From contig CM018606.1 in assembly GCA_009192285.1 (NCBI GenBank), forward strand, positions 796,081 through 860,080: a stretch of 64,000 nt of DNA, given 5' to 3'. Numbering within the stretch: the first letter of the stretch is position 1; the number at the start of each line of letters is the position of its first letter. A program made the translations under genes and the position numbers. Below the pieces are notes generated by a model that made no database searches, was not told the origin of the DNA, and saw only the letters and a program-made list of their open reading frames with translations. Positions 38,062 through 45,985 of this stretch are shown here, in pieces. The stretch is from Morchella semilibera (taxonomy: Eukaryota; Ascomycota; Pezizomycetes; Pezizales; Morchellaceae).

Positions 38062-39110
38062 CTAAAAATTCAGAATTTTTTTGACGGCCTCCCTGCCTTT
38101 CTTCCCTGGCTGTGTGCCCACGGTGCCTGCATTCGCCGTCACTGCCGCCTCCGTGCTCTTCTTTTTGCGGGTGAAGCTTGGTTCCGGCCTGCTTGGCTTG
38201 GGCGGCCACTGGTCGTCACGCTTCCAGCCCTCAACAAGTGCATTGCAGAGGTGCTTCAAATTAATGGGAATTGGGGGCTGGGCGCCACCTAGACAGACCT
38301 TGGTGTAGATCTGGTCATATTCTGAGGGGCCAATGAGGGCGTAGAGTGGGTTCTAAATGCTGGTTAGAAGGGTACCAGCTAGCGGGGTACGAATTGGGGT
38401 GGTACATTTTTGAAGCGACTCTCACAGACCTGAACCTCACCGTCCTCAGTGGCCTGAGTCCAGGCATCGCGGCGGTGAGTCCAGAGCTTCAGCCCCTCGT
38501 TCCATTGCATATCTGCCTCCACTGCCTGGCGATGACGCTCCCTGATCTTGTCGGGCGTTGGGACATCATCGGGGCTCTCCCACATGTACCCATCCTCTTT
38601 CTCCCCCGACGTCATATCGACCTCGAAGTCGCTATCATCCTCACGGGGAACCCAGATCCCCTCCCGCGGCTGACTCTTCTTGGGCTTACGCCTCTTCACC
38701 GCTGGTGGTGGGGTAGTCGCACGGCGGTAGCTACTACTGCGGCCGACACCTCCAAGGGAGACTCCTCCGCCGTTGGCACCAGTAGGGCGAGAGTAATGGT
38801 GTGGGTCGTCGTCCTCATCGTCCTCATCATCGTCGTCCTCATCCAGGTCCATGTCCACGTCTAGGTCATCTTCCTCATCTGTAACCTCCTGCGCAGAGAG
38901 TCCACTAGGTCGCCAGGAGCCCAAGCTCCCCTCCCGTCGGCCATCGAGGAGCTTTGTCTTCTTTGGGGGTAGGGTGTATTCCCAGCCGACGGCGACGCCG
39001 TCAAGGATGGTCTTTGCAGAGTTGATTGCTTGGCTGCGTTGTTCCTTTGTGAGCGTTTCACCAACGGAGCCGGCTCCGAGACGGCGCCGAGTTGTGGGCA
39101 TGGCGGGCAT
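38062..39110 (-). CDS. Gag1-like clamp domain (DUF4050) protein
   Basis: Fungal protein of unsettled function carrying what I take to be the Gag1-like clamp/DUF4050 domain. Two exons, 39110-38430 and 38352-38062, joined across a 77-nt intron with a GTCTGT donor, give 323 aa. The N-terminal part has a conserved-looking segment around TKEQRSQAINSAKTILDG, then an acidic stretch of Asp/Glu near residues 80-105, a Ser/Pro-rich linker and a basic patch VKRRKPKKSQPREG that could be a nuclear-localisation signal. The domain proper spans about 195-295: WNEGLKLWTHRRDAWTQA, then NPLYALIGPSEYDQIYTKV, then IPINLKHLCNALVEGWKRD with QWPPKPS. The C-terminus is Lys-rich. The ATG at 39110 is followed by a second ATG three codons on. 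The family name is from memory of Pfam and should be checked. Confidence 0.82.
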
Positions 39111-40861
39111 CTCGTCGCTCGAGAAACAGGAGCGTGGGAGAAACGTGGTGGAGGGTTTTGGGGGGGCCGTTGTGGGAGATGTTTCAGATGACTGGCCGTT
39201 GGGTTTTATTTAGTCGGAATGAAGAAAAAAAAATGGAGCTAATGAACTAGTGACGAATGGTGATGGGAGGAGAAAGGAAAACGACGACAACGAAGAGGAG
39301 GGGAAATTCGGGAGTAGAAGTGGCAGGTGATGAGCACAAGAGAGAGAGAGGAAGAGAGGAAGAGAAAGAGAAAAGAGAGAGAGAGGAAAAGAGAGAGAGA
39401 GTGGATTACGATCGATAGAGAGCTCTATATTAATCTGAAACGTGGTATTCCCATGTCGCTGCGAATGCAAGAGCGGATTTACCCCACATTTCAGCCGTCT
39501 GGCTTTTTCTTTTACTCTGCTGTGTCTTCTCTAACTTTTTTCTGACCCCTGAGTGAAGGGTGCATTTACTTGCTCACCTCACCTCACCCTCTCACCACCC
39601 CCTCCCAAGCCAAATTAACTGCTGCGACCCAGCATTGCGTTCTTTGAGAGATGGCGGATCTTGTTTTTTTTTTTTTTTTCCCGCATTGCTTCTCCAGCCC
39701 AGCCACCCCCCCACCCCCTTCCCCACCCACCCCAATCTTGCGCCCCGGTTATGCATCGCGATTGATACCCGCTCCCGAGAGAAAGAGAAAGAAGACTCCA
39801 AGCCTCGGCCTGCTAGTCTCGACCGTGGCAAAAGCTACGTTTTTTTCCTTCCCCGATACCCCTCGATATATAAGATCCTCGCCTGACGTTAAAGCTGTCG
39901 CAATCCAGGGCCCTTCTCGGCAAAATAAACTGGTCTGTGCACGTGACAGCGGATAAGGCTGAGACCCCGTGGGCCGTGACGAGCGAGGGGGAGGAAAGCT
40001 TAAGTGCTTTTAACTTGCCCGCCAATATAAAAATGGAGATTTTGCAGAGTTTATCTTCACTTCCGTCATATATGTATACTTATCCAGGCAATTAGGGGCG
40101 GAGGTTTCTCTAACTACAAGTAGATCCCAACTCCTGTTAAGTGTGCAATGAAAAGAACTATTGCATCAGAAGCAGGGATGGGCTGCGGAGTGGGACCAAG
40201 TGCAATGCAGGCCACCTGAGCTCATGATCTAATTACAAGCCTCCGATTCAACGTGACAAGCATCCGAGTTGAATTCGCGAGGCTCTGCTGTTCCACCGAT
40301 GCTGATGAGAATGCGGGTGGATCAAGTACTCTAGAAATCTTACTACATTAGGCACAAAAATCCCCCCGGTCCCAGTGTGGTGGGGATCGCAGCATTCACC
40401 TTGCCTAAGTGGTTGTATAATTTACTAATGAGGTCTCCTAAGTGGGTTCACGGTGTATATTACATGCACAAACAAGTCCACTCGGAGAACCTGCCTTCAT
40501 ACATAGAAATTGCACCCTCGTAGCCAACCTGGGGCGGTGGGCTGAGATGACACTCTATTGCAAGAGAATCATCTCTGGCCCGACCCTGTAAGCCTACGAG
40601 TGATGGGTGACAAGCAGTGACAGGCGGTTACAAGCTTATATGCAATGTATTAGTCTTATTTATCATCTGGTATCAGATACCTGACATGGTATTCGCAGGT
40701 GCATTCGCAACTTGCAACAATCTCGTACTAGATGCAACTGGATCCTCCTACTAGCATTCTTGCAACGAAATTTTAAAAGCACTTGTACAACCAAGTCACT
40801 CTCCACCGCCAGCCACCAATACTAAAAGTATTGACATCCTGTCCGCACCAAAACCGGAATT
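39111..40861. other. Intergenic between clamp-domain and CBM48-kinase genes
   Basis: The first 300 bases are purine-rich on the plus strand (GAGAGA tract 39340-39402), i.e. CT-rich on the coding strand of the minus-strand clamp gene, as expected for its promoter. The remainder, about 40000-40860, is AT-richer with no open frame of note and forms the 3' side of the CBM48-kinase gene. Confidence 0.5.
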
Positions 40862-43008
40862 CTAAGACGATTTAGATGCCGGCTTACCCTCTACCCATTC
40901 TTGTAAAACGAACTTCAAGACCCCTTTATTCATTGAGGCCTCCTTGACCGACGCCCATTCATACCCCCTCACGAGTTTAAAGACCATCGGAAGGCTTTTG
41001 AGAGCGGCCCTTCCAATGAAGGCCGGATGATGCTTACAAATCTCCTCAAGGAGAACCATTGGTAATAGCAGGTTTTCTTCTAAAACCAGCGATAGAAATG
41101 TTTCTTTTGTACAAGAAGGCACACGTCCTGTAAGATCGGTCCGATCATCGTTTGCATGGGTCACACATAGAAGCCCCATGATACTAGGACATTCAGCCTT
41201 GTATCTCGAGAGAGCTTTAGCGGGCCCAGACTCATACCAGTCAGGAAGCAAGCACATCCTGGGTGGACAAACAGCAGCCTGGATCGGTACAGATCTTGTA
41301 TTTTGCCAATCGAAAAGGTGTCCCGCGATTATAATATTATGTCGAGATAGGTCGGGATATTGGAGAATAAATGGGCCGTATTCATAGCGTGAACTAAATA
41401 GTTCATACAGCATAGCTCTCATCTGCCAAAGAGCCACAAACTCATCCATTTCAAACACCAAACCGTGGCTGAGAAGGTGACGATAGTACGCGGTGATAGA
41501 GTCAAGAGATCTAAAATGGTTGGCTGGTGGAAAATGCCTATCTCTTGGTGGGACATGAAAGGCTGCCACGATATAGTCTGTGAATGGTTTGCACCTATCG
41601 TAGATGCAAGGGCGGATGCCAAATTCTGCTTTGCTTGTCCTGATTTTGCGAGAATTGGGTCCCTTCTTAACCTGCCAAAAGAGTGTATTAAGGGTCAGAT
41701 ACCCGCATGCAGATAATGGATGTTCAGCTAGCTCCATCCGGTACATCATAATCTGTTTCAAGGTCTTCACAGATCAGTAAAGTGGTCCCGCCGGTTATTT
41801 AACTAGCTAGTAATAAAAATCTACGAGTGGATGAAATACCATGGATCTTGAATCGTCCAAGTCATTTGGAAACAGGGGCTCCTTCCAGGAATTGTCTAAT
41901 TGCAACCAAGAGGAGGTATTTCCAAGGTCCCCCAATAGGATGAATGGCCATCCAACTCTATTCTCAGCAATAGATTCCCAACTATTTCTGCCTAGGCCTG
42001 GCGATTCAATTTTTACTTCGGTTTCATCCCCTGTTGTTGGCTTTACAAAGCGTACATCATAGGCATATATTTGAGGTGCCGGAACTCTTGTATATTGATT
42101 GAGAAAACGCAATGTAGCGCATTCACTTTCCATCAGCAATTCTCTTTCAGAATTACTATAGGCTTTGGGGGGTTTATAAGGGAGCATCTTGTGATCAAAG
42201 TCTGTCGGAAACTTGGCTACCCAGACTTCTTTGGCTTTCTCTTCCTTCTCGTCATCGTAGACCCTATCCAGGATCCCACCAGTTATGTCACAGGCAGGAC
42301 AGTTCATATTGCTCTCTTGAATCTCCTCCAAGGGTTTATCTTCCGGTGATGAAAAACCGGACTGACCCTCCACTAGTTGAAAGCGTAAGAACACGATTTC
42401 GCTCCACGAGCTCGACATGGAGAAGGCTGATCGAGTAACATTAGGGCCGCTCTCATCAAATACACATTCAATCTGGCGTCCGTAGCCATCAATGCTTCCA
42501 TGGATAGAAAGAGCAAATTTGCAAAGAGCCTCCCGGTTGACGTTAGTAAGAGTAAGCATTCTACGGAGACGCCGCTCGCAGGAGTCATGGTAATCGGTGG
42601 CCTCCTCGAGTGTCCAGTAGTTGTTATCGGTACCAGATTCATCGGTGACCACAGGGAATTCGGGGTTCACCTTCCATACTGTGCCATCGATGATGAACTT
42701 TTCCATCTAAATTAACATCGTGACATAGCTAGAAGAGGAGGAGGAATCTAGACTTACTTTAAAGAAAATCTCGCCAAGATGCTTGTTTTCGCCCAGGAAA
42801 AGCAAGAACTCCCCATCCGGTTGACGCTCAAGTTCAAACCCAGGCTGGCTCCAACCTGATGAATCAAAGGTTACATGTACTGTCTTTGCATCACAAGCAG
42901 GCCTAAACGATAGTTTAGGTTACTCAACTTCTCACTTTCTTGGGTTCAGTGTATATACCAGCTAAAAGCTAAACGAGGACGATTCCCCCATTGAGGTGGA
43001 GATTCCAT
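40862..43008 (-). CDS. CBM48 (AMPK-type glycogen-binding) module fused to an APH-like kinase fold
   Basis: Four exons, 43008-42959, 42902-42758, 42697-41825 and 41764-40862, give about 656 aa. Residues about 10-92 fit a CBM48/AMPK-beta glycogen-binding module: RPRLAFSWPACDAKTVHVTF, SSGWSQ, IFFKFIIDGTVW, then PVVTDESGTDNN. The Trp residues expected to stack on glucan (W34, W73) are kept. From about 200 the protein resembles fungal aminoglycoside-phosphotransferase-like proteins: VWVAKFP (K227), ERELLMESECATLRFLNQ (Glu), VPAPQIYAYD, WPFILLGDLG, QYPDLSRHN (D494, N499) and FDWQ (D508). The usual His before the catalytic Asp is replaced by YP, and only eight residues separate N499 from D508, fewer than usual. 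Exon 3 could begin at 42706 instead, adding three residues inside the conserved FKFIIDG. Substrate unknown; possibly a glucan-targeted kinase or pseudokinase. Both domain calls are by eye. Confidence 0.8.
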
Positions 43009-44329: not shown

Positions 44330-45985
44330 TTAAGTTAACGTGCAATAATCTCTCCCTCTTGCATATTGGTATGAACAGAGGTAATGCTCTAATACTATGC
44401 TAATGAATCCAGCCACACAAATCCCACCTGAATCACTAACAGTAACAGCGCCGAGAGAAAACTCCCTCTCATCAGCTGGTACCTCATCAGTTATCTCTGC
44501 AAAAGTATTCACATACACCATTCCGCCCAACAACCCCTCCCAAAATATAACAAGAAAAATCAGCCATATGTTAGGGATGAAGTTGTACATTGCATGAAAC
44601 ACCAGGAATATTAGGTTCACACATTGCAGAAGTGCGGGCGGGTAGAGCTGGCGGAAGCGGATAAATGGAGTCGATGATCGGGAAATAAAAACGCCTGTTT
44701 GATAAATTGTGTTGTACATTGGGTAGGCATCACGGTACGCATTGAAAGGCATTTCAGCAAGTGGAAAAAGTAGCGTAGGCGCGACACCTAGGTTGATGGT
44801 GTACTCCGCAATGTAAACAAGAAGAAGGGGTAGCATGCTGTTTTAGAAGTTAGATTTGATTTTAAGCCACTCATACGCCACACTTTGGATTAGCTCAGAG
44901 GATGGGTAAGACCTACTAGGGAAAGAATAAATGTTTCGTTTTCTTGAAATTGGCTCTAAAGCCTTGCCATGCTGCCGTTGCATGTCTTAATAGGCCTTTC
45001 TCTTCGTGGGGGCTATTAACGGCAGGAAAAACAAGCCCACTAGCAGAATGAACCGATGTTGCCAATAGCGCAGCATCAGCATCATCTGCCTCTTGGATCT
45101 CTTCGCTGTTTACAGCGCCCTCGACAATTGGTTCATATCCGTCCCATTTCTGGCCTTTGATCATGTCTAGTGGCAGGATCATGAAGAACGCCAGAAGCAT
45201 GACAATTGGCAAGAACCCAAATGCCATCAAGCTCTCCCTTATGCCCCATCCAACCCAGCTTGTCGCGAAAACATACAACCCTGCGCCCAACAATCCAGCA
45301 GCGCCTGTTCCAGAAGACCAGAAAGGCACAGCAAACCGACCGTAGAAGTGCGTAAGGCCTAGAAATGATAGTTCCCCTCCACCAGACGAGATCGATGCCA
45401 ACACAACGCCAAAAAGCCTGGCAGGGAGTGATTCACCCCATGCAACTATTTGCATACCCACGAAGGCCAACATGACGAGTATCGGGATCCGAATACGGTA
45501 AGGGATTAAGTGGATGTAGTAGGGAGCTGTTAACTTGGTGATAAAAGAGGGTCCGACATCCGCGAGGAGAACGATAGCCTTTGGTAGACTAGGACCAACG
45601 AGATCAAGAGCTGCCGAGAGAATAATGACGTACAGGACATTGTTGATGCAACCTGAGCGCAACAGGGAGTTTAGTTGGGACGGATTCTAAAGCTGCTGAA
45701 ATCAGGAAGAGCCTCGTGAGAGATGACGTCATTGTTTACAGGAAGTTACAAGCAGCGAGGACGCGGTACTAATATGAAAAGAAGGAGAAAGGGGGGGGGG
45801 GGGGACTGACCAAATAACCAAAAGGCTACACAGACTCGAGGGTTGGCACCAATAAAGGCGGCTTTGATTCGAGATTTGTATGCTGCAAGACTTGATGAAG
45901 GGGCGCCAGGCACAGGTAACGAGAAGGATGACATCTGCGAGGCTCTAGCTGTTGTTACTCCTCGGGTCGGAGGTGTATCTTCCAT
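44330..45985 (-). CDS. BTN1: Battenin/CLN3 homologue, vacuolar membrane protein Btn1
   Basis: Polytopic vacuolar/lysosomal membrane protein; yeast Btn1 affects vacuolar pH and arginine handling, and human CLN3 is the juvenile Batten disease protein. Exons 45985-45811, 45652-44917 and 44837-44330 give 472 aa, close to the family's usual 400-480. Conserved stretches are intact: [10 protein letters not shown] joined to [19 protein letters not shown], then [62 protein letters not shown] and [12 protein letters not shown]. Around ten hydrophobic segments can be seen. A charged loop with an acidic stretch (about 260-300) sits mid-protein. Intron 1 contains a 14-base G-run right after its GTCAGT donor. 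The usual NQG of the YTINQG motif is NLG here. The first 45 residues are a Ser/Pro-rich cytosolic tail. Confidence 0.95.

Follow-up and report, generated by a model that had tools for sequence, protein, structure and literature searches.

A Morchella semilibera gene that appears to join an AMPK-beta-type CBM48 module to an APH-like kinase fold, and its likely pseudokinase paralog

The stretch of DNA analyzed here, which we call the window, is 64,000 nucleotides long (C4:796081-860080 of a 56.8-Mb, 23-contig assembly of Morchella semilibera) and holds genes for CLN3, Rxt3, Mus7/MMS22, a Tom1-like HECT region, and an ABC half transporter. On its minus strand, at 43008-40862, lies a gene that in the model used here has four exons encoding 656 amino acids (Table 1), in which a CBM48 module of the AMPK-beta type precedes a region resembling aminoglycoside phosphotransferases (APH). 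An in-frame stop stands 10 codons upstream of its ATG, and the reading frame is without disruption. Directly upstream on the same strand is a CLN3 (battenin) exon (44919-45686, minus, 237.6 bits), and downstream an acidic frame (38382-39209, minus) matches the Gag1-like clamp domain (PF13259, 40.1 bits). Searches of the same genome returned one further gene of this architecture, at C12:420040-422272, which encodes 686 amino acids and is referred to as the paralog.

Table 1. Exons and introns of the fusion gene, in window positions
Feature	Position	Strand	Length	Description
Exon 1	42959..43008	-	50 nt	start codon and first CBM strand (LAFSW)
Intron 1	42903..42958	-	56 nt	GTATAT..TTTAG
Exon 2	42758..42902	-	145 nt	ends in phase 0; middle of CBM, up to GEIFFK
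Intron 2	42698..42757	-	60 nt	GTAAGT..AAAAG
Exon 3	41825..42697	-		end of CBM (FIIDG..GTDNN, to residue 98), linker, kinase N-lobe
Intron 3	41765..41824	-	60 nt	75 nt with donor at 41839
Exon 4	40862..41764	-		kinase C-lobe (YPDLSRHN and FDW motifs), C-terminal tail, stop

An earlier note on this DNA, made from the letters alone, had joined two small upstream exons in phase to a third, and the joined sequence does read in frame. Exon 1 breaks off within a Trp codon, in phase 2, and exon 1 of the paralog is identical in length and phase; exon 2 of the paralog is likewise 145 nt. For exon 3, a start at 42697 is more likely than the 42706 that had been given. An acceptor at 42707 would shorten intron 2 to 51 nt but is the less likely choice, because it would add MEK between the FK and the F, with a drop in the CBM module's score from 33.0 to 27.4 bits, and because the paralog reads FK|F. 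Toward the 3' end, the earlier exon model lacked the third intron, which runs from 41824 (or 41839, if exon 3 ends at 41840) to 41765. An acceptor at 41672 was considered for this intron and given up in favor of 41765 once the paralog had been aligned, exon 4 being taken to start at 41764 because TLKQIMMYRMELAEHPLSACGYLTLN aligns with exon 4 of the paralog.

The N-terminal module was assigned to the AMPK-beta family on two kinds of evidence. Residues 14-98 of the 656-residue model match Pfam AMPK1_CBM (PF16561) at 28.7 bits (E 1.5e-6; cut-off 26.8), and the first 106 residues taken alone reach 33.0 bits (E 6.9e-8). When those 106 residues were searched against the PDB with phmmer, AMPK-beta1 CBM chains ranked first (1z0m, E 2.8e-4). 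The earlier note's proposal of an N-terminal CBM48/AMPK-beta module is thereby borne out, including the significant profile match that it had asked for in residues 1-95. Because exons 1-2 encode one part of the CBM and exon 3 the rest, exon 3 by itself scores 20.8 bits to positions 50-82 of PF16561. The CBM of the genome's AMPK-beta-like gene scores 104.7 bits against the same profile, which marks the fused module as divergent within the family. In a Pfam scan of the whole window protein to E 10, AMPK1_CBM was the only match, with no AMPK beta-subunit C-terminal domain; over the same range, neither the window protein nor the paralog matched Pkinase.

Many of the residues expected to touch a glucan are present. 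One account (PMC9788615) gives the AMPK-beta1 contacts of beta-cyclodextrin as W100, Q124, K126, W133, Q145, L146, T148, and N150. At these eight sites the alignment places W, F, K, W, E, S, T, and N in the window CBM, where five are identical (W100, K126, W133, T148, and N150) and Q124, Q145, and L146 differ, the last having become Ser. The paralog reads W, H, K, W, E, L, N, and N, again five of eight, keeping W100, K126, W133, L146, and N150. Counted in the same way, the AMPK-beta-like gene of this genome keeps two of the eight and two other CBM48 genes, L001 and L004, keep five and four, so that five of eight contacts is no distinguishing mark of the fusions. In mutational data reported in PMC6274970, the isolated beta1 module no longer binds glycogen when it carries W100G or K126Q and binds it more weakly with W133L or G147R; all four of these positions are kept in both fusion proteins. 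Phosphorylation at T148 is described in PMC4416872 as blocking binding, and this site is Thr in the window copy and Asn in the paralog. Judged from these residues, the CBM would probably hold the fusion protein on glycogen or a similar alpha-glucan.

Recognition of the second region required more sensitive comparisons. The window protein had no match to Pfam APH (PF01636) up to E 10, so the label APH-like that the earlier note had given it stands by way of a same-genome profile and the paralog rather than by a Pfam match of its own. The paralog does exceed the PF01636 cut-off (28.4 bits against 23.2). The profile was built from an alignment of four APH-like sequences of this genome, some of them fragments (L050, L055, L026, and L054), three of which (L050, L055, and L026) pass the PF01636 cut-off, with L054 below it. 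It scored 26.7 bits against the kinase region of the window protein and 54.0 bits against that of the paralog, where the best of 1000 shuffled sequences (500 per kinase region) reached 6.1 bits. An hhalign comparison of the kinase region with the APH-like set gave a probability of 96.7% and an E of 3.3e-10, yet over 83 columns only, which lie on the N-lobe side and leave the catalytic loop outside the alignment. A PDB search with both kinase regions returned nothing significant (PEX3 only, at E 0.36 and 0.40). In NCBIfam the window protein had no match and the paralog matched homoserine kinase at E 0.17. AlphaFold run on the window protein alone gave a mean pLDDT of 33.3 and a pTM of 0.22. The order of domains that had been proposed, CBM48 followed by an APH-like region, is supported both by these profile matches and by a paralog of the same exon structure.

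Motifs of the kinase region were compared in a joint alignment. The window protein reads VWVAKFP, ESECATLRFL, YPDLSRHN, and LFDWQ, and the paralog VWVAAFP, ESECATLRFL, HANLFPQN, and IIDWD. We take the catalytic roles to fall on the N-lobe Lys or Arg (VWVAK), on the Asp and Asn of YPDLSRHN, and on a second Asp, that of FDW. By this assignment the window copy keeps the Lys, the catalytic Asp and Asn, and the second Asp, with Tyr replacing the usual His of HxD, and the paralog has Ala for the Lys and Asn for the catalytic Asp. L050, L055, and L026 carry HPD, HAD, and HSD, followed by IDW or VDW; in bacterial maltokinase the corresponding motifs are named HGD and DFE, according to a figure legend of PMC4306142. 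The spacing from the catalytic Asn to the Asp of DW is 8 residues in the window copy, 17 in the paralog, 13 in L050, and 14 in L055 and L026, and 13 residues separate the Asn position of L054 from the Gly of the GW that replaces DW. The loop of the window copy is therefore 5-6 residues shorter than in the three canonical APH-like proteins here, and a shorter beta-hairpin could keep the register. With both the Lys and the catalytic Asp lost, the paralog is likely catalytically dead. The earlier choice of "kinase or pseudokinase" is thus answered in part: the paralog has lost both residues, and the window copy, which keeps them but has a shortened loop, could be either. L054 itself (G000:C2:888546-889376, plus), an APH-like sequence whose 945-aa frame begins with a long acidic extension and has a hydrophobic C-terminus, carries LPE and GW in place of HPD and DW and so looks like another pseudokinase.

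The two fusion proteins share 251 of 601 aligned residues (42%). Scanned whole, the paralog matches AMPK1_CBM at 25.5 bits, a little under the cut-off of 26.8, and its module alone reaches 30.6 bits. Further matches to the paralog in the genome were weak (E 0.043, 0.14, and 0.19, at a threshold of E 1), and no relative was confirmed among viral contigs and prokaryote genomes, collections that are not meant to hold fungi. Contig C13 carries an identical copy (5501 of 5501 bases equal to C12), and the C12 and C13 copies were counted as one gene. These contigs (L046 and L047; 1,576,628 and 1,575,470 bases) are near-duplicates in which the paralog and its flanks are identical, C9 and C10 hold a comparable pair of APH matches, and the assembly seems to hold duplicated contigs.

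Codon comparisons between the window gene and the paralog, made on regions cut by hand and with a simple correction (Nei-Gojobori style with Jukes-Cantor), found synonymous differences saturated across regions (pS 0.78-0.85). By the same approach, dN was 0.40 for the CBM (88 codons), 0.42 for the N-lobe part (97), and 0.41 for the C-lobe part (168), with 0.69 both in the linker region (95 codons) and in the tail (120). The CBM has therefore been held as tightly as the kinase lobes, and nothing else here argues as strongly that the CBM exons are part of the gene. Because an anciently duplicated second copy has the same layout, the CBM48-APH-like fusion looks real, and by the searches made here the family has two genes in this genome.

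Introns offer a hint about where the module came from. In L004 (G000:C23, about 1,375,500, minus), intron 1 interrupts the Trp codon of FKW (phase 2) and intron 2 separates K from F in YK|FVVDG (phase 0), so that both of its CBM introns share codon and phase with those of both fusion genes, including the FK|F splice at intron 2. L001 (C3) is uninterrupted at both positions, and the intron of the AMPK-beta-like gene lies at another site. Most simply, the fused module may derive from the 5' exons of a gene of the L004 type, or these introns may be ancient ones that other genes have lost.

Each half of the fusion resembles systems already described. The module belongs to the same family as the CBM of AMPK/SNF1 beta (PF16561 above cut-off) and keeps most of the AMPK-beta1 contacts listed above, but here it covalently precedes an APH-like fold and lacks the beta-subunit C-terminal domain; the genome's own AMPK-beta-like gene is separate from the fusion genes, with another intron and only two of those contacts. 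Fungal APH-like proteins (PF01636) are linked to the fusion by the same-genome profile, which recognizes the kinase region, and by the paralog, which passes the cut-off. They differ in that none of the four comparison sequences has PF16561 (judged on fragments for L055, L026, and L054, and for L050 on the whole protein as well). L001 and L004 share PF16561 matches with the fusions, and L004 their CBM introns, but the frames of both run on as low-complexity sequence rich in Ala, Glu, and Pro, with no kinase fold; we presume them to be comparable to yeast Crp1/Mdg1. Bacterial maltokinase (Mak/Pep2) is, according to PMC4306142, often annotated as an aminoglycoside phosphotransferase, and its N-terminal domain has been proposed to keep it anchored where glycogen is made. 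To that extent it is a functional precedent for a glycogen-anchored APH-type kinase, an analogy of function only, since its cystatin-like N-terminal cap is unrelated to the CBM48 of the fusion. Plant SEX4 and animal laforin also combine a catalytic domain with a glucan-binding CBM, but they are phosphatases, and the fusion has a kinase fold. Both modules are thus known, and what may be new is their pairing: in searches of open-access papers aimed at it we recognized no description, although it may already stand in UniProt, InterPro, or fungal genomes.

We give about an even chance to a model in which the window gene encodes an APH-like kinase tethered to an alpha-glucan, with a pseudokinase sister. 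The N-terminal AMPK-beta-type CBM48 would serve as the tether to glycogen or another alpha-glucan; the window copy, with the residues that phosphotransfer would require still in place, may have as its substrate a sugar or small molecule at the surface of the glucan; and the paralog, having lost two key residues, could be a pseudokinase partner or decoy that competes or senses. What the sequences show is the fusion, its duplication, and constraint on both modules; glucan binding, the catalytic activity of the window copy, any partnership of the two proteins, and the substrate are things that we infer. Another possibility, to which we give some weight while considering it unlikely, is that both copies are glucan-binding pseudokinases whose kinase fold is a scaffold or allosteric platform on glycogen, without phosphotransfer. 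The paralog's VWVAA for VWVAK and HAN for HxD would be expected from such a pair, as would the YPD for HPD and shortened loop of the window copy and its being missed by Pfam APH. However, the window copy retains the Lys, Asp, Asn, and second Asp, and its lobes have been constrained as much as its CBM.

Doubt could also fall on the module. It is improbable, in our estimate, that the CBM-like domain no longer binds glucan and instead plays a structural or regulatory part as a beta-sandwich packed against the kinase N-lobe, in the way that the AMPK-beta CBM packs on the kinase domain of AMPK-alpha. Two substitutions, Ser for L146 in the window copy and Asn for T148 in the paralog, are consistent with such a role, as is the closeness with which the kinase N-lobe follows the CBM, but W100, K126, W133, and N150 have been kept in both copies despite saturated synonymous sites. 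That the gene is a pseudogene, or that neighboring genes were mis-joined so that the CBM exons are foreign to the kinase gene, is hardly credible. Introns 2 and 3 do each allow two choices of splice site, but the paralog is joined alike, with exons 1 and 2 equal in length and phase, the CBM spans exons 1-2 and exon 3 (20.8 bits for exon 3 alone), the frame is intact, and the CBM is under constraint; mis-joining and chance splicing were rejected on the paralog's matching exon structure and on codon constraint. A more ambitious form of the tethered-kinase model, which we hold to be clearly unlikely as a whole, is that an AMPK-type sensor was transplanted, introns included, from a CBM48 gene, giving a glucan-regulated phosphotransferase, with a malto-oligosaccharide or other glucan-associated metabolite as a conceivable substrate, together with a dead sister that senses glycogen or competes for it.

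To our knowledge, no substrate is known for most fungal APH-like proteins, and a glucan-binding module on one of them is a testable lead to its site and target of action. If the window copy is active, glycogen would be linked directly to a kinase other than AMPK, and if it is inactive, a pseudokinase would be placed on glycogen. The intron match with L004 offers a concrete case of a binding module moving between genes, and, were the transplant reading true, this fungus would possess an AMPK-independent phosphorylation system at glycogen.
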